Part shown: one piece after another, positions 35,275-57,473 of the stretch
Position numbering within the stretch: the stretch's first letter is position 1
Layout: each line of letters opens with the position of its first letter
Source of the DNA: Sipunculus nudus
Taxonomy: Eukaryota; Annelida; Sipuncula; Golfingiida; Sipunculidae
DNA length: 64,000 nucleotides
Direction of reading: 5' to 3'
Assembly (NCBI GenBank): GCA_026874595.1
Contig: CM049307.1
Coordinates: 34,884,862 to 34,948,861 of the forward strand
Translations under genes and position numbers: made by a program
Notes under the pieces: model-generated
Told to the model about the DNA's origin: nothing
The model's input: the letters and a program-made list of their open reading frames with translations, nothing else
Databases searched by the model: none

Positions 35275-38200
35275 CTAGTCATGATGGGACGTGTACAGTT
35301 CACGGAGCTGCAACTTGCCTCTGTGTCGCATGATTCTGTACCTTGCTAAGTCTTTGCGGGTCACCATGCCAACCACCTAGAATAAATACAATAAGTAATG
35401 TAAACTTTCAATGATTTTGTGATAGAAATGGACAAACAGAGATCAGAAGAAACTACTGAGGTGAAATGAATTTCATAGAAACATATATACCTGTGAATTG
35501 TAAAAATACAGGGAAAAAATGTGTAAAGGCATACATTATTTTGTGCACTGAGCTTCTAAGTACAATGACCACAAATGGCTTTATTTATTTATCCATGAAC
35601 ATTAAACACATTTTATATAATCTGTAATTTCAAACATCTGAGCACTGATTCATTGCTGGACTTGTCTGACAGTTTTTACTTACCTCATTGCTTGCATTGA
35701 TGACCACCAGGTGGCGTAAACCTAATCCTCTGAACAGCTTGAACACTCTTGGCAATGATGTGTTCTGAAGATATCAATGTGTATAAGTCAATGGCAATTT
35801 TTATAATATTATACATAGTGCAGCACATTTAATATAACAGAAAACAAACTCTGCTTGTCTGATGTTCTGTAACATAAAAAATAATATTTTGTAATCATGT
35901 GCCAATATTGTTTAGCAGAAACAATGTAAATTAAGATTGTTTTGTTACTTCATTCAAGGGCCAAAAAGATTTAAGTTGCACATATGCCAAAATCCACCTT
36001 CCTTCTAGCGAGGCTGTCATTGCTATATTTTCAGAGATCCCGCTCTATTGAGCCATTCTGGCATCTTTTTCAAAATCAATGTGTAATATGCTTCCAATCA
36101 GATTTAATTATGTCATCAAATACCATGTGACAAGTCTTATCTTCATCTCATAGGTCATTTATATCATACAAACACAGTATTTAAATCTGCAACTGGGCGG
36201 TTCAGTAATATTTTTGATAACCCTAAAATACAAATATTATCATGTTTTAATTGAATAATCTGTGTTTCTCTGTGCTGACAAGTCAGGTTTGAAAATCTGA
36301 TGTAAGCCAGGCTGTCCAGCACACCCTAATGAAATAGTAGGACAGAAGTAGGATAAGAAATACAGAACAAGAGCATCTCAAAGGTGCATAATATGCCTGT
36401 CTTATGACATGTGACCTCTGACCTCATTACATATGTGTGAATTTTGCCAAGGATTCAAATCAGGTTAGAAAATGTAGATTTTTGGTTAGTCATTATGGCT
36501 TCACCAAATTCTAAGTGACCTCTGACCTCACTAAGTATGAGTGGATTTGGCTATAATCAAACTAAAATGAGATAATCTATTGGTTAATAGTTTTAGGTGA
36601 GTTTTGTGAAAATCTATCAAAGCACCGACAGACAGACAGCTAGATTGATGGACCATAGGTATACAATAATGCACCCCCATATAAAAAAGTAGCACAAAGG
36701 TAGAAAACAGATGGAAAATTAGGACCAAAGAGGACTAAAATGACACATGTAACAACAACAAGTGACCCAGGGGTCATGACGCTCAGCTGACCAGGAAGAC
36801 ATTGACAAAAGTAATTTCTATCATCTGAATGTCAAATTTGAATGAAATACTTTTTCCAAACTTGACCTTTTGTATAAAATCATCCAATATTCATTGGGGT
36901 ACTATGGAGCTCTGTAGCATGAAGGATATGGGTAACAGACACCTATTTTCAAGGTTTACAAGATGACTTTTCAGGGGTCTCCGAGCATGTCAAAAAATAA
37001 AATTCTAGGTCCAGTTATTATGATTTGTGCCCTGTTAACAGATGACCAAATGTTAATTCTGGGGGGTATTTCAAAGCCGCATAGGATGAAGGATATGGGT
37101 AACAGAGATGTAATTTCGGATGCACAAGGAGACTTTTCAGGGGCCTCCCAGCATATCAAGAAAGGAGATTCTAGGTCAAGTCATTATAATTTGTGCTCTG
37201 TTAACAGATGACCAAATCTTTATTCTGGGGAGTACTTCGGAGCCCCAGAGCATGAAGGATATGGGTAACAGAGACCTAATTTCAGGTTTCCAAGATGTTT
37301 CATGGACCTCCCTGCATGTTAAGAAAGAAGATTCTAGGTCAAGTCATTATGATTTGTGGCCTGTTAACAGATGACCAAATGTTTAAAGGTCTCAAAAATC
37401 AAGAAAAAAATTCTTAAAATATCAAAATACAGGTGGCACCACCAGTCTACAGAAACTGATGAAACAAGCCATTATCAATACAAATGTGGACAATCATGGT
37501 AATCAATGCATTAGTTATTGTATCAAATTTTGCATTATTCTGGGAGGAACTTCCGAGCCTCATAGCTGAAAGGATATCAGTAACAGAGACCTTATATCAG
37601 GTTTCCATATAGACTTTTTATGACCGTCCTTGCATGTCATGACAGAAGATTCTAGGTCCAGTTGATATGATTTGTGCCCTGTTAACAGATGACCAAATCT
37701 TAAAAGGTTTCAAAAATAGAGAAAAAAAACTTAAAAAAATCGAAAAAATACATGTGGCGCCACCAGTCTGCAGAAACTGATGAAACATCATGATCAATAT
37801 CCATGCAAAGAATCATGGTGATAAATGCATAAGTTGTGGACAATCATGGTGATCAATGCATTAGTTATTGTATCAAATTTTGCATTATTCTTAGGGTACG
37901 TGGGAGCCCCATAGCTCGAAGAATATAGGTCACAGTGACCTAATTTCAGGTTTACAAGGAGAATTTCCATAGACCTCCCAGGCTGTCAAGTAAGAAGATT
38001 CCAGTTCTAGCGTTTACGATTTGTGCCCTGTTAACGGACAGACGCCCGGACGGCCGGATGGACGACGGACAAAAGGTGATCCCTATAGCTCAGATGACTT
38101 ACAGTCAGCCGAGCTAAAAATCATGCAAAGTTCTTGATAAAAGAATTCAAAATCCAAAATGCAATATCACTGAGAATATATTTTACCATTTTTATGTGGT

Positions 38201-41200: not shown

Positions 41201-44200
41201 TTTGAACAAACTTGAGTTGTCAACATCTGAGGATAATTAATGTGTGAGATTTCAGAATTTGGCCCAGCGGTTTTTGAGAAGAAGATCTTTGTAGCCACTG
41301 AGATAAAATGGGCTGTTATGGCATATGACTAAATTCAGCTTCCCATAATTTAGCCAAAAGTCACTGAACTGAGACCATTTGAACAAACTTCAGAAAGCAC
41401 TACCCTAGGATCATTTCTTTGCGATATTAAACATTTTGGCCACATGGTTTCAGAGAAGAAGTTTTTTGTAGGCCTTAGTGTAATACAGGCACTGATGACC
41501 CCGTACAAAAAAGGCCGATGCAGGTGGTGCCACCAATACCTCAATTTCAGATATGACTTATGTGACCAACATTTGCATAAAATTTGGTGATGATAGCTCC
41601 AGCCGTTTCTGAGATTTAAATTTTAATATGCTTTTTTGCACAGGTAACAAAGTTCAACCTCCTGTAACTCGGCCAAAAATCTCCGAACTGGAACCATTCG
41701 AACAAACTTGAGAAAGATTGTTCCAGGGATCATTTCTGTGAAATATTGGACATTTTGGCTGGACAGTTTCGGAGTAGAAGATTTTTAAAGCTTTTTTAGC
41801 TTTTTCCCTATAAAATCTAAGAAAATGCAGTTAGAAAAAAATACACAAAATTTGATATAGTTTTTTGGATGACTGATTATTTGCAAAATATTTGGTGATG
41901 CTAGATCCAGCCATTTTTGAGATAGCTATGGTTAACGTACAGATGACACACGACGGACGCCGCCGCACCATCGCATAAGCTCACAGGTTCGCTAACAACA
42001 AAAGGCCACTTTCACTGCAATTATTAGTATTTTTATACTGCATGTTGCAGAGAAAAACAAAAGAAGGAAAAACTATGTGCTTTATAGAAAAGTAGGATTT
42101 CTGGACAATATTTGACAACTTACATCACACACAGCATATGGTGCTGGGTTCATAAATGGTGACAAGTCTATGGTACATTCTCTTTCATATGGTGACACAT
42201 GGATGTGCTGGAACAAACAGACATTAAAAACAATGAAAATATGTAATAAACGTTACCATATAAATCACAAAAGGTTTGTAACTCTTTCATTAAGAAAGAG
42301 TTGAATATTTACACATTTAAAGTGCTGAAGAGAGAAAAACTTGAGGTGGAATGTAAAAATATCTACAAATGAAACATTGTATTCAGTTTAAATTACAACA
42401 AGGACCTATGGCCATATGGGTCTTGAATATATAATATAAACTGCTTTTTTTCCATATGGGTACCTGTATCTAAGGACAGCTGGTGTAGTATTTACCTGTA
42501 TATCTGGGTATATTGAGTGGTGTTTATCAATATAATTTGGTATCTAATGTGATAATTACCTGTTACTCATTTGGATCTAGTGTAGGACTTACCTGTATTT
42601 CTGGGTATCTTGGGTAGTCATCTCTAAAGTTTCTGAGTCTTAGTCTAGGACACGTTCCCGTCAGATTCAGGGGGTTTGTAAAGGCCTGTCAGAAATGAAT
42701 CATACTTGCAGATTTTGGTAATATGAATATTTTGACACATAATTAAACCTGTGTTAAAAGTTCCTTATTTAGCGGTTAAACTCTGGAGCCAAGCAATAAT
42801 TCCAAGCTTATGTTAGTTGACATAATTAGTAAACCTAATTATGGTTTCCCATAAAGCCAGCCATGTTATTTTAATTTTGATAAAACTGTAGGCTGATAAA
42901 AATCAAACTTACTCATGAATTAGGAACTGATTTCTCTTAAATAAATACAAGACAGAACTGTCTCAAGGGAACATTCTCAATGGTGTATAATCTGTAAAAT
43001 GAAGCTAAGTTAAGAGCAACTTCATTTCAGACTCTAATAGGATAAACACAGTTCTTTCACCAATGAAAACTCAAAGTGAGGTTAAGACTTTTCATACTCT
43101 CTTCAATGAATGTGTACATACTTTATGTTTCAGCAGGACTATTAGTTGTGACCTCAGGATCATCCCCCTCAGGACACCAAAGCTTGTCCTGTCAGGCTGA
43201 AAATAAAGTCCATGGTCACAATAACTAGTGAACCAATTTTTCTTTGATGCAATGAGGTGCTAAAGATGCGATATTAAGAAGAAAATTATAAACATAATAA
43301 AATAGTAATTATGGATTCTTGAATGGCATGTAAAGACACTGTATATCACTTTAAATCTTTAAATGGTAAAATGTTTGCAAATAATAGATTAAGTAAAAAG
43401 AAATGTGTGACTCGAAGGATTAAGCCATTTGACACCATCTACCTCATTATTGGTTTGCTCAACCACAGGAAAGCCATTGTGGTTCTCCTGCCATAAGATA
43501 TCCACGATCTTCCCAACTTTCTCGACCGTCTGCAGTGTGGTCACTGGGTGACTCATCACCTCACTAAAATCAGACAGAGCGTATATTTTATAATATAATG
43601 TACACTGTACATTAAACAACTTATACCCAGGCCTCAGTGGGGGTTACAAGACTCTGATAATAAATAATTTTAGCATGAAAATGACTGTTTATATTCCATA
43701 CCTTTTTAGCATGATTGGTTGGTAAACACAGTATGTAGATAATCCAAAATGCATGATTACCTGTGTTGGAATCAGCAGTGATAAGCACTCTTTACTGATG
43801 GTGAATGCTTGGTAATCAGGAAAATGGTTCAGATTTACATGAACAAGGAAAGTTGATCTGTTGAGCCATAGGAAAGGTTTCACATATCAGTGATAAATTT
43901 GGGAAACACTTCTTAAAAGGACCGATGAGTGTAATATCAGTAACAAACAGTAATGCCTGTGTGACTTTGAAATCTGCAACAAGATTATTCATGTTCAAAT
44001 TTGATCTAGCTCTCCATGTGGTGCAATAATGGTGCAAGTATGGCAACTGTTCTTGTGTTGCAAGCTGATGGGGCATTCAGCCAAGCCAGGGTACTAAACA
44101 TGAAATTCACTGGAAGAATATTTCATAATAAAATACCAGAGACTTAATCCATTAAATGAATTATACCATTTCTGTTTGTGGCTTCTCAGCAATTAGTACA

Positions 44201-47200
44201 TATGCATTTGAAATCCCAGTACATCATCACTCACCTGGCAAATATATTTGAAGACATTGCAGGTGGCTCCCACATTAGAATTGGAACATTCTGTAGGTGA
44301 ATGTGGATATCATACAAACCCTGGAATAAAGAGAATTTTACTCCGTATAATTTGTAGTCTTCTTCTAAACTCCAGTGAATAAAAATGGTTGTAATGGCAA
44401 TATAGGCATAAAATCCTAATTTTGAGAATCTTTATTAGAAATTCATAATGTATAATTTGAAAATTAAAATTCATAAATGATTCTGTTTCTACAATGAAAT
44501 CTTAGAAAAAAAGACCTAAGCCACCCCTATACATGGTTTATACTGTATAGCCTGGTTCTTTTAGCATGAAAATGTTATAACAATGAGTGTTTAATTTCCT
44601 ATTATCATCAATATTGAGACCTCATTTTCTAGGGAAACATATAGACAAAGGTAATTGTCAACTGTATTTACTTAATCATATTGGCACATATGAATTAAAA
44701 CAATAAACTATATAGCTTTTCAAGCCAGCCTTCTAAAAATTTCCACAAAGGAGAACATTTGAGCATGAATCAAAGTTAATTTTGAAAAATAAGTTATTTT
44801 TGTCAGGTTCAAATTTTATTTAATGTATAATATGAAAATTTAATAAAATATGTATCTTACCTCATTGAATATATCACCAACCCATTTTGCTACTGTGAGA
44901 ACAATCATCAGTGGAAGTCCAAAAGTTATGTTTCCTGTAGCTTCTATCATAATCACAGTCAAACTCAAAGTCATGCGAACCACCCCACCTAAAGAAAGCA
45001 ACAACAAATGATATATAAAAACAAGTTCGTGCACAGAATTAAAGAATTAAAGAATTGTTTAGGGAAATAGACTGATTTTATTATAATTGGATTCCTTGAA
45101 TATTCTAAAAAGTAGGTATACTGTCCCCTTTCTGTACATTTGGTCAACATTTAGTGCTCCTTTTTAATTGCAGTTTTATAATTAATTTCTAAGGAGAAAA
45201 CACTCCAAAAAAACATGTAGACAGGGGATGATGAACACAGGGCACTGGTATAGACAATCTGAAATGTACCAGTGTTTTGAAATTTAACTCTTTGTATTAA
45301 TTCATCATACAGGTACACTGGTTATCTTGCTGAAACATACTAGGTATTTGTTTAAATTGCTTTGATGTTTGGACTTAGAATATGCTCGTTTACCTAACTG
45401 TGCAGCAGCTCCTATCAATGCATATTTCTCAGGAGTAATGAGTTTCTGAAATGTACAAGACCTGAAGAATGACACAACAATAACACACACTTTTGCATTC
45501 AGCTGGGTGTCAAAGTATCAACAAGTTTTATAATCTAATGACTATACGGTAGTTATCAATCCAAGAACTCCTGATATTCAATGATCTCAATGATCATGAA
45601 ATGTAGAAATATGTTATATGTAACTTCACTTGTACCTTTTTATTAATTGAGCTTCTCAGAACAAAGTAATTATGAAATTTGACTTCAAATGTTCATCAAC
45701 CTCATATGGCCAACAGTACAGTTATGAGCCACATTATCCAAACTGGTGTTAGACTTTTCAACTTAACAATGAATTATTCCTAGTCCTACAATTAAGAAAC
45801 ATCTTGTTCGATGAAGACTGGCCTTGTTTCTCAATGTACATTATAAATATACAAGCCTGAATTATGTAAACAATTACATTGTCAACCATCTAACATCTGC
45901 AGATAAGTGCCCATATGCTATGCATCTTCTGTGTGAAGTAATATATATACATGGATATTGACTTACAGAGTCTGGGAAAATGGTGACCATCAGTATGCCA
46001 ATAAGTCTTCCCCAGGCAGCTCCAGTCAGTAGTGAGGGGATGAAGAGACCGCTGGGGACACTCAGACCGTATGTCCAGCAGGCCAGGATAAAGTAAAACA
46101 CACTGAACACAGCAACAGTCACCGGACGGAATGATTCTGAAAGAAAATGTAAAACACGCTGGACACAGCAACAGTCACAGAATGGAATAATTCTGAAAGA
46201 AAATATAATACAGACTGAACACAGCAAATGTCACAGGACGGAATGATTCTAAAACAAAACATAAAACCTACTGAAATAACTACTGTCACTGGTTAATAGG
46301 TTGTGAAATAAACTGCTATATTCACTGGACAGAACTATTCTGAGACCTGATAAAAAGTAATAAGATGTAGAACATATAAAGTGTTAATTGTCATGATAAA
46401 TCCTATTTCAGTCCTTTAAATATCTATGCCTTTGAAATTTAACTCACCACAGTTCAAGAAATTGTAAAAGTAAGACATAAAGCATTTTAACCTGTGATAA
46501 CATTAAACAATACCTGGTATCATATTTTACATTTAACCATTTTGTAATGAGACAAAACATCAAATTAAAGAAAAAGCATCCTACCAGGCGGATCATGGAA
46601 GAGACTCTTTACACTGTCTTCTGGAGTCTGCATCCACATTGTTGCCACGGCGTTGTACTCTCCATCATTACAATACACCTGTAAAACAAGTGGTCCTGTC
46701 AAAGTAAGTGGGCCTCTGTTTACCATGTACTGAGGATTCATATTTATTTGTGCATTTGATTATATCAGATTTTTGTTGGTCATAAATTTCCATGACTTTA
46801 AGAATTCAACACACCTGTGTGATAAAATTATATATTTATAGGACGACTGACCTACCTGCACTACAAATTAACAACCCAGCATTATATATGAATTAATTCA
46901 AAATGATTGCACAATAGTCATTCCTTAATCTAAATGATGAGAAAGCAGGTCTTACCTGCTTGTCTGTAGGTATATTACCACCATAAGCCCTAATCTACAT
47001 CTTTTTAACCTTATCACCTTATCTACATATTATAAGCCAAATCATGATTTCTGGTTCTACTTGGCTCACCTGTAGAGGGTTAGAGCTGTTATCTTTGCCC
47101 AATGCCTGACAATCTACGACTAAATATATCATCACAAATGCTACTGCTGTTGTTGTCATGCCAACAATAACAGCCTCAAGGACCTGTTTCCATTTCTGAT

Positions 47201-53200: not shown

Positions 53201-53961
53201 TGGAGAGATTACTCACTAAATAATATCCATACCTATAGGTCACATGACTTTCAGTCATATTGGTGCATACTGCATAGATTTTAAGGATACACTTTTTAAG
53301 GAGTGTGAACTTGAATGTTGTTAGTTGTGTGATAGCCAGATCAATCCCACAAGCCACCATTCCTGTTGACATGCCAATGAGGAAGGCTACAAACCATCTG
53401 ACCACTTGTTGCCATAATATCCGCTGAAAAATTACAGTGCAATATAACTTGACATCTACATTCATAGTGTAAAGTCAACATTACTGGTGGAACCATTCAG
53501 ACAATGTTATCCTAATTTATTGTAAAAGAGTTTCAAATGAATGAAACCACACTATTCTCACTTTTTCTTGTGAGTGTGAAACAACAGATCAATTGTTTTT
53601 TTTAACTTGGAAGAAACTAAGAACTCTTCTAGCATATGGAACAATAACTTCTGGAATAGTCTGCGTGTTCACATGTTATCTCTAAATTCAGGATCCACAT
53701 CCTTGATTAAGAATTTTTTTAAAATACAAATCTACATTAAAGGCTGGAAATTTTTTGTTACATGCAATAATATACCTGTTACAGGGTCTGAAGGTAGGGT
53801 ATGGTACAACAAGGTATTACTATACCTTGTACTATACTTTAAACTCCTGTAAAACACAGAAATCAAGTTGATAGAAATTAAACATTATATGGTACCTTGT
53901 AGCTTCGATTCCTCTCTTCTTTTTGATAGAGAATATTCTCACAGCAGTCATAGTCTAAACT
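35275..53961 (-). CDS. CLCN7: Lysosomal 2Cl-/H+ exchanger CLC-7 (21 exons; N-terminus not found)
   Basis: Exchanger of late endosomes/lysosomes; in vertebrates it works with OSTM1. Exons 53961-53896, 53423-53291, 52727-52618, 51507-51364, 50442-50359, 49840-49682, 48552-48442, 48036-47982, 47624-47564, 47208-47070, 46678-46585, 46136-45967, 45445-45394, 44988-44861, 44320-44235, 43563-43443, 43196-43122, 42685-42593, 42207-42124, 35764-35684, 35376-35275 join in frame to 715 residues. Diagnostic: SLDYD start, [22 protein letters not shown] (gating Glu), [12 protein letters not shown] (proton Glu), [28 protein letters not shown], then CBS1 ([10 protein letters not shown]...HNGFPVVE) and CBS2 (LRHLVV...[10 protein letters not shown]). 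The ~100 N-terminal residues of the family, with sorting signals, are missing. I found no exon for them up to 61379. The splice junction at 53291/52727 is the least certain. Three exon edges carry tandem duplications. Confidence 0.95.
36754..38120. repeat. Compound tandem repeat in CLC-7 intron
   Basis: The phrase GAAGGATATGGGTAACAGA recurs near 36921, 37085 and 37251 (166-bp units), then in diverged form near 37566 and 37916. The larger units include a GGTGGCRCCACC-type core. It opens with GTCATGACGCTCAGCTGACC and closes GACTTACAGTCAGCCGAGCT, i.e. weakly inverted GCTCRGCTGAC ends. Probably one non-autonomous element with internal amplification. Confidence 0.65.
38458..39780. mobile_element. 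Composite repeat X, copy 2
   Basis: Same orientation and layout as 23338-24513: start AACTAGAATATGGGTAGTC, palindromic cores near 38610, 38760, 38889, 39038, 39188, 39318 and 39469, and end TGTTTTGGCGGATACAA. Cores are GGTGGCGCCACC or GGTGGCACCACC. It has one more core than copy 1, so the internal unit count varies. It lies in the 6.4-kb CLC-7 intron. Confidence 0.75.
39781..40520. repeat. Degenerate repeats, GCACTGAGTGAACTCTTGACC units
   Basis: Further GGTGGCGCCACC-type cores at about 39861 and 39990 precede several imperfect copies of GCACTGAGTGAACTCTTGAC (about 40160, 40210, 40368) and of AAGCTATAAATAGA. No coding support; repeat filling of the CLC-7 intron. Confidence 0.55.
40868..41997. 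repeat. Dispersed repeat family A, copy 2
   Basis: Same orientation as 19853-20583, with extra internal sequence including a GGTGGTGCCACC core near 41523. Ends CATCGCATAAGCTCACAGG. It closes the repeat block of the CLC-7 intron, about 130 bp before the next exon. Confidence 0.7.
42484..42621 (-). repeat. Duplicated exon-edge plus splice donor in CLC-7
   Basis: The 3' edge of exon 42685-42593 (CCCAGAAATACAG|GTAAGTCC) has a diverged direct copy 97 bp downstream in the intron (CCCAGATATACAG|GTAAATAC, GT at 42495-42494). Reading through the real donor meets a TAA after nine codons, so use of the copy would truncate the protein. Confidence 0.7.
46108..46345 (-). repeat. 56-bp tandem array of exon start plus splice acceptor in CLC-7
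   Basis: The 5' edge of exon 46136-45967 with its acceptor (TTTTCTTTCAG|AATCATTCC) is repeated upstream with a period of exactly 56 bp. Three clear copies have ACAGCA at 46109, 46165 and 46221, and two decayed ones lie near 46277 and 46320. Copies 2 and 3 retain pyrimidine tract plus AG (TTTCTTTCAG|AATTATTCC and TTTTGTTTTAG|AATCATTCC). Confidence 0.8.
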
Positions 53962-54390
53962 CTGAAACAGAACACAAAAAGAATATTCTCACAGCAGTCA
54001 TAGTCTAAACTCTGAAACAGAAAACATAAAGAATATTCTCACAGCAGTCATAGTCTAAACTCTGAAACAGAAAACATAAAGAAAATTCTCAAAGCAGTCA
54101 TAGTCTAAACTCTGAAATAGAAAACATAAAGAATATTCTCAAAGCAGTCATAGTCTTAACTCTGAAACAGAAAACATAGAGAAAATTCTCACAGCAGTCA
54201 TAGTCTAAACTCTGAAACAGAAAACATAAAGAATATTCTCAAAGCTGTCATAGTGTAAACTCTGAAATAGAAAACATAAAGAAATTTTTCACAGCAGTCA
54301 TAGTCTAAACTCTGAAACAGAAAACATAGAGAATATTCTCACAGCAGTCATAGTCTAAACTCTGAAAATGAAAACGTAACAAAAATGAGA
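53941..54390 (-). repeat. 50-bp tandem array (9 copies) of exon start plus splice acceptor in CLC-7
   Basis: Nine copies at exact 50-bp spacing (53941, 53991, 54041, 54091, 54141, 54191, 54241, 54291, 54341). On the minus strand each reads as pyrimidine tract, TTTCAG acceptor, then the start of the exon encoding [11 protein letters not shown]. Only the copy nearest the coding exon continues into [10 protein letters not shown] and the real donor. All nine keep the CAG. Confidence 0.92.
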
Positions 54391-57289: not shown

Positions 57290-57473
57290 TGAAGCAAGAA
57301 AGACAAGATCGCAATCCTGGCCGGACTAAACTGCGATCGCAATATAGGCTGGACAGATCTAAGATCTGGCCAGCCTGGATTGCGATCTCAGTTTGGGCCG
57401 GCCTGAACTGCGATTGCAATTTGGGCTGGACAGATCTAAGATCCGTCCAGATCGCAATCTGGGCCTTGACATA

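Follow-up and report, generated by a model that had tools for sequence, protein, structure and literature searches.

The ClC-7 gene of the sipunculan worm Sipunculus nudus carries a splice acceptor, together with the start of the exon that follows it, in nine tandem copies. We read this array as a minisatellite of the kind called a mirage, and we think it likely that the gene tolerates it because splicing uses the acceptor nearest the donor, under exon definition, with leaked products being removed.

A nine-copy array across a ClC-7 splice acceptor

The window, that is, the whole 64-kb stretch of DNA that was analysed, at 34884862-34948861 of its contig, holds the following features at the array, whose copies are numbered from k=0 (3'-most) to k=8 (5'-most).

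53926..54379, minus strand: array 1, read here as a mirage minisatellite; the unit is about 15 nt of intron 3' end plus about 35 nt of exon start
54327..54379, minus strand: copy k=8, the 5'-most; its intron side (TTACGTTTTCATTTTCAG) has diverged
53896..53961, minus strand: predicted real exon, 66 nt, phase 0-0, 22 aa; starts in k=0; donor AAG|GTACCA
53896..53926, minus strand: non-duplicated part of the exon, 77% purine

Using Tandem Repeats Finder (TRF), array 1 was resolved into 9.1 copies with a period of 50, 91% matches and 0% indels. The exon part of the nine copies begins at 53961+50k (k=0..8, minus strand), and each copy consists of a pyrimidine tract, TTTCAG (intact in 9/9) and then AGTTTAGACTATGAC or a close variant. 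This agrees with the initial annotation, which had described a nine-copy 50-bp array of just these elements; its bounds of 53941-54390, however, were off by 11-15 bases. Searching the window with TTTCAGAGTTTAGACTATGAC and allowing up to three mismatches gave nine matches, all within array 1 (versus 0.01 expected from 100 shuffles, in which the largest count was 1). When a 511-base query containing the array was compared with the 1.43-Gb genome, in a search skipping very common words, it matched itself only.

The copies are near-identical but not identical: pairwise identity ranges from 43 to 49 of 50 positions (mean 45.9), and 13 of the 50 columns are variable. Copies k=2 and k=1 are nearest the consensus. 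The outermost copy, k=8, deviates on its intron side and is probably the one nearest the pre-duplication intron end; the inner copies k=7 and k=6 deviate about equally. By eye, the intron parts of copies 7-6-5 repeat the three-unit pattern of copies 4-3-2, as expected from an exchange of several units at once. A perfect 12-nt palindrome, GAGAATATTCTC, is found at 53929-53940 and 54329-54340; of the nine copies, just the first and the last have it intact. We also considered that misassembly might have expanded a shorter array, since one amphioxus globin mirage looked aberrant, seemingly misassembled, in a draft genome (PMC3087553). Here this is highly improbable, because the copies carry distinct substitutions and the array spans 454 bp, a small fraction of the HiFi read N50 (14,008 bp, at 72.63x coverage) reported for the assembly (PMC10212961).

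The exons identify the gene as a ClC-7, the best PDB matches being 7jm6, 7cq5 and 7bxu (E ~1e-141 to 1e-142). Twenty-one exons were placed with a human sequence as query, and several of their ends are approximate. The residues SLDYD..EN.L...EER of the 66-nt exon align with ClC-7 (7jm6). As the initial annotation had claimed, only the 3'-most copy enters the real exon: k=0 alone reads on into it, and it joins exon b in frame across a downstream intron of 472 nt. A crude search of the 9.6 kb upstream of array 1 and of a further 10 kb did not find the preceding ClC-7 exon, so the starting frame was taken from homology.

Use of any one of the eight upstream acceptors would lead to a premature stop, always ahead of exon b. 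Such stops are expected since the unit is not a multiple of three. The annotation had predicted a GTT-TAG stop about 18 codons in for every upstream copy. This holds for five of the eight (k=8, 6, 3, 2 and 1, after 18 codons), while in k=7 and k=5 the frame stays open for 37 codons and in k=4 for just one; the broader claim that upstream use would be unproductive stands for all eight. At the level of sequence, all eight thus share with NMD-coupled poison splicing an alternative site that leads to a premature stop.

In anatomy, array 1 fits the description of an amphioxus mirage. Its unit lies across an intron/exon boundary and, judged from sequence and frame, a single copy (k=0) falls within the regular exon, the rest being intronic. 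NAGNAG-type tandem acceptors are defined by acceptor AGs only a few bases apart; with a spacing of 50 nt, array 1 is not of that type.

Two outcomes affecting the protein itself were weighed. Competing acceptors might hinder inclusion of the 66-nt exon and cause its frequent loss, which would remove 22 residues in frame (phase 0-0). The exon length of 66 and its frame with exon b would permit this, but the exon start is recognisably conserved with vertebrate ClC-7, and we regard frequent skipping as very unlikely. Alternatively, a copy could be recruited as a small exon, the repeats after it becoming an intron, a model that has been proposed for globin mirages of amphioxus (PMC3087553). A candidate donor, GCT|GTGA, indeed lies 19 nt past the acceptor in 6/9 copies (k=8, 7, 5, 2, 1 and 0). 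However, the real exon contains this motif as well, an intron from one copy to the next would measure ~31 nt, and extra residues are not called for by ClC-7 homology, which makes this origin of a new intron hardly credible here.

Choice among nine near-equal acceptors

Acceptor strength was scored with a model built from 85 acceptors of the S. nudus genome. Thirteen of these were hand-called (13/18 hand-written ClC-7 motifs were matched), and the model trained on them called the other 72 automatically, so that all percentiles are approximate. The nine array 1 acceptors score 9.0-12.4, between the 46th and the 85th percentile (n=85), and are thus ordinary for the genome; the upstream copies are the credible acceptors they had been taken for. 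The k=0 acceptor scores 9.4 (52nd percentile), and k=6 and k=3 are stronger (both 85th). In a second array in the same gene (array 2, see below), the real site scores 7.9 and is likewise weaker than one decoy at 11.0. Strength was therefore rejected as the selector of k=0, and since the real acceptor is not the strongest of the nine, it leaves the choice unexplained.

What sets k=0 apart is position: it is the copy nearest the exon's only donor, and it alone is followed by the unduplicated purine-rich part of the exon. Purine-rich exon stretches can act as splicing enhancers. Among 11 enhancer-type purine hexamers tried, nine are present in 53896..53926 and none (0/11) in the array 1 copies.

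A rule based on position is available for such a situation. According to Carranza et al. 2022 (PMC9225289), exon definition takes over once introns reach 200-250 nt, the sites closest across the exon are preferred under exon definition, and the boundary for separate recognition of two acceptors lies at 12-20 nt. With a downstream intron of 472 nt and an apparently long upstream intron, this exon-side proximity rule predicts the use of k=0. But the same study also holds counter-evidence: the upstream 3' site was preferred overall when the two sites were at least 20 nt apart, a preference that was reduced, not cleanly reversed, for sites of equal strength in long/long introns, and Reed and Maniatis are described there as having found the upstream 3' site chosen.

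We propose the following course of events. A 50-bp tandem duplication across the intron/exon junction of ClC-7 would have given rise to the array, which would have grown to nine copies partly via exchange of several units at once. Acceptors 50 nt apart would be recognised separately in the first step. The 66-nt exon would then be recognised by exon definition, the only downstream 5' splice site pairing across the exon with the 3' splice site closest to it; the paired acceptor would be the one adjoining the purine-rich, undivided exon part. Most of the time the eight upstream copies would remain intronic, and leaks would be eliminated as premature-stop mRNA. The reading frame points to k=0 as the copy that would be used, only this copy being open into the conserved protein; exon definition and the purine-rich stretch may guide its choice, and leaked mRNA with premature stops presumably decays. 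On this proposal, ClC-7 would survive with the array since splicing would go to the donor-proximal acceptor, much as it does in the human CBS 844ins68 allele. The statement of the initial annotation that the spliceosome must choose among nine near-identical sites is thereby supported in form.

Further arrays and their frequency at acceptors

ClC-7 contains a second acceptor array and a duplicated donor:

46094..46275, minus strand: array 2, 56 bp x 3.2, with three clean copies; exon starts at 46136, 46192 and 46248
46263..46315, minus strand: decayed fourth copy of array 2, acceptor AG lost
45967..46136, minus strand: predicted real exon of array 2; starts in the last copy
42577..42618, minus strand: exon end and donor, the original of a duplication, AAATACAG|GTAAGT
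42480..42521, minus strand: decayed duplicate of this exon end and donor, ATATACAG|GTAAAT, 97 nt downstream of the original

The upstream copies of array 2 are identical to its last copy at 49/56 and 47/56 positions. The decayed copy reaches an alignment score of 38 (versus a maximum of 30 in 1000 shuffles), and other windows score at most 28 against it, with 7 array-overlapping windows set aside. No further case emerged among the remaining 19 ClC-7 acceptors, with scores of at most 22, or among 20 donors, with at most 25, by comparison with null windows that reached 30 and were drawn for acceptors only. Two other repeats in the window are of the dispersed kind. A 166-bp unit at 36915-37383 has a consensus resembling an array beside a myosin exon (L044:2510-3149) and represents a dispersed family of repeats that also forms a tandem array of its own, and 28-bp units at 57356-57426 resemble units in L039:788-931, another dispersed repeat.

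Outside ClC-7, the following arrays lie at exons of other loci:

L041:1762-2274: myosin exon; acceptor and exon-start array of six copies of ~82 bp, the farthest partial
L119:512-738: USP exon; acceptor and exon-start array in which three 56-bp copies are clean and a further upstream one is diverged
L058:523-1522: myosin P-loop exon; adjoining 36-bp array of 27.8 copies with donor-like CAG|GTCAGT in the units
L018:1942-3174: CLC-family exon and donor, inside a 117-bp array of 10.6 copies (96% matches) that runs to the locus end
L025:287-917: array with three copies of a 208-bp unit (98% matches); by eye, it contains a reverse-strand CLC exon

To place these in context, TRF repeats make up 13.24% of the S. 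nudus assembly (PMC10212961). Arrays with a period of at least 20 cover 6.23% of the 120,000 bases flanking exons at 40 loci (of 49; overlapping loci were left out). Acceptors outside ClC-7 were sampled blindly (n=134), 104 of them (125 minus 21) from one set and 30 (20 + 10) from SNF2 loci. Four loci inside the window gene, locus L117 (too short) and the bacterial loci L004-L013 were dropped before counting, and the TRF run excluded the ten shortest SNF2 loci. L004-L013 are ten loci, on nine of the contigs C61-C90, with intronless, bacterial-looking CLC frames of 724 aa; they are ~95-99.6% identical to L004 at the DNA level and probably represent a bacterial associate assembled as several strains. 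A retrocopy origin of these intronless frames was rejected, given their bacterial look and their identity to human ClC-7 of 24-30%, measured over the two better pieces.

A score-based scan flagged 9/125 acceptors: ClC-7 a and l, L026, L119, L058, L068, L070, L109 and L111. Five of these were rejected as acceptor arrays. The L058 exon is, by eye, coded on the minus strand of the locus, which puts the array, whose unit of 36 is a multiple of three, at its donor. In L068 and L109 the array adjoins the acceptor, L070 is an AT-rich two-copy intron duplicate without an acceptor, and the L111 stretch, as judged from the scan coordinates, stops 39 nt before the match. L026 is a marginal case, with the TRF array reaching to 1501 and the real AG following at 1510; a local alignment extends one base beyond the AG. 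A separate TRF test flagged 7/126 (ClC-7 a and l, L026, L058, L068, L119 and the second exon of L041); L041 was excluded from the 134 since it had been added because of its array. Control windows in the loci passed the same score in 43/540 cases, some of them inside exon arrays. An automatic scan for donor arrays yielded 0/45 but is unreliable, because it missed the donor array that L058 shows by eye.

Without L041, the automatic calls outside ClC-7 thus place 4/134 acceptors in arrays (P 0.07 versus the 6.23% cover), and inspection leaves one clean case, L119 (P 0.002), or two with L026 (P 0.009); the criteria differ between the counts and the sample is small. An enrichment of arrays at acceptors was therefore rejected, and a depletion is possible. 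Against a high background of tandem duplication, the acceptor arrays give the impression of sporadic survivors. For ClC-7 itself, 2/21 acceptors in arrays compares with 2/134 elsewhere at P 0.04 and with the cover at P 0.38; one more array among its other 20 acceptors at a rate of 2/134 has a P of 0.26.

These counts bear on the idea that the eight upstream acceptors are regulatory decoys, diverting splicing into premature-stop mRNA so that copy number sets ClC-7 output. All eight do lead to premature stops, and two of them reach the 85th percentile of strength; the stops, however, would be expected from any unit length not divisible by three. The 1-2 of 134 acceptors in arrays could mean that upstream copies are costly, but before inspection the 4/134 were not clearly below the cover. 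A further hint is that, across four arrays, the last six intron bases of the decoys vary less than the rest (2/24 columns variable versus 6.45 expected, P ~0.02, range 0.016-0.023 in column-based tests). Their AG columns show 0/8 variable versus 2.16 expected (P 0.06), and a cell-based test gives P 0.007. All these tests are post hoc, count related copies and leave out the decayed array 2 copy whose AG is gone, and variability is inflated by the forced unit ends of L041; in array 1 alone, the invariance of TTTCAG is unremarkable (P 0.15). Moreover, amphioxus mirages are described as free of aberrant mRNA: Adh3 data and globin RT-PCR suggest that regular splicing is undisturbed by them (PMC3087553), and for the Adh and TnC mirages aberrant mRNAs are stated not to be generated (PMC3902484). 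On balance, we consider regulatory decoys unlikely. Slightly better-kept decoy acceptors nevertheless count against a tolerated array resolved by exon definition, as plain neutrality does not predict them.

Length variation of array 1 between individuals, which the initial annotation had invoked, is plausible by analogy with mirages, which are length-unstable, even somatically. A wider idea, namely that mirages recur in S. nudus as in amphioxus and that intact decoys serve as length-variable splicing rheostats, of which ClC-7 would have two, strikes us as quite unlikely.

Comparison with known mirages and duplicated junctions

Two-site constructs are the usual tool for asking how the spliceosome decides among equal acceptors, and whether distance over the intron or over the exon is what counts. 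S. nudus offers a natural test set with nine near-equal sites at one ClC-7 exon, three at another and further arrays in other genes. Each array has one productive answer, and ordinary RNA-seq of a single worm would show the rule as well as the copy used. Even short of any regulation, these arrays are natural experiments in which splicing would time and again settle on the last acceptor in a row of as many as nine near-identical ones, or occasionally make a new exon of a copy.

In amphioxus, from which this kind of repeat was first reported, mirages are tandem repeats of intron/exon boundaries, as found in Adh3 and globin genes (PMC3087553), with further examples in PGBD5 and troponin C (PMC3902484). 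The BflGb6 mirage is of the acceptor type, with 6 and 3 units on two haplotypes, and BflGb9 carries one of the exon-end type (PMC3087553). For the Adh3 mirages, units of 10-72 bp and somatic length instability are reported (Canestro et al. 2002, via PMC3087553). Both genomes show minisatellite-like duplication of an intron 3' end with an exon start (as in BflGb6) or of an exon end (as in BflGb9), with several units, many copies carrying splice signals, and both kinds within one genome. The S. nudus case differs in lineage (Sipuncula), in gene (ClC-7), in its nine 50-bp copies and in the second array within the same gene. Among the literature matches listed, the term mirage in the splice-site sense was applied to amphioxus only, so within the literature searched the sipunculan mirage may be a new case. 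If mirages, which have been proposed as a source of new introns, occur outside cephalochordates too, this would suggest that they appear in any genome with frequent tandem duplication.

The exon-centric proximity rule (Carranza et al. 2022, PMC9225289) predicts the acceptor nearest across the exon if introns are long; its basis is mostly human site pairs, and it is weaker at 3' than at 5' sites. Among human alleles, CBS c.844_845ins68 resembles array 1 in being a tandem-duplicated intron/exon junction. Of its two copies, the more distal one, which adjoins the remainder of the exon, is reported to be strongly preferred in splicing (PMC2630376, where the wording is 'donor' although the title of the cited Romano 2002 speaks of the 3' splice site). 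Exon-proximal use is thus reported for CBS, whereas in ClC-7 it is predicted from the frame. The CBS insertion also differs in being one 68-bp duplication with two sites and a human polymorphism. A second CBS allele, the 31-bp VNTR c.1444_1467+7(16_21), is by its coordinates likewise a minisatellite over an exon/intron boundary, with variable copy number; unlike array 1, it lies at a donor and comprises 16-21 copies of 31 bp.
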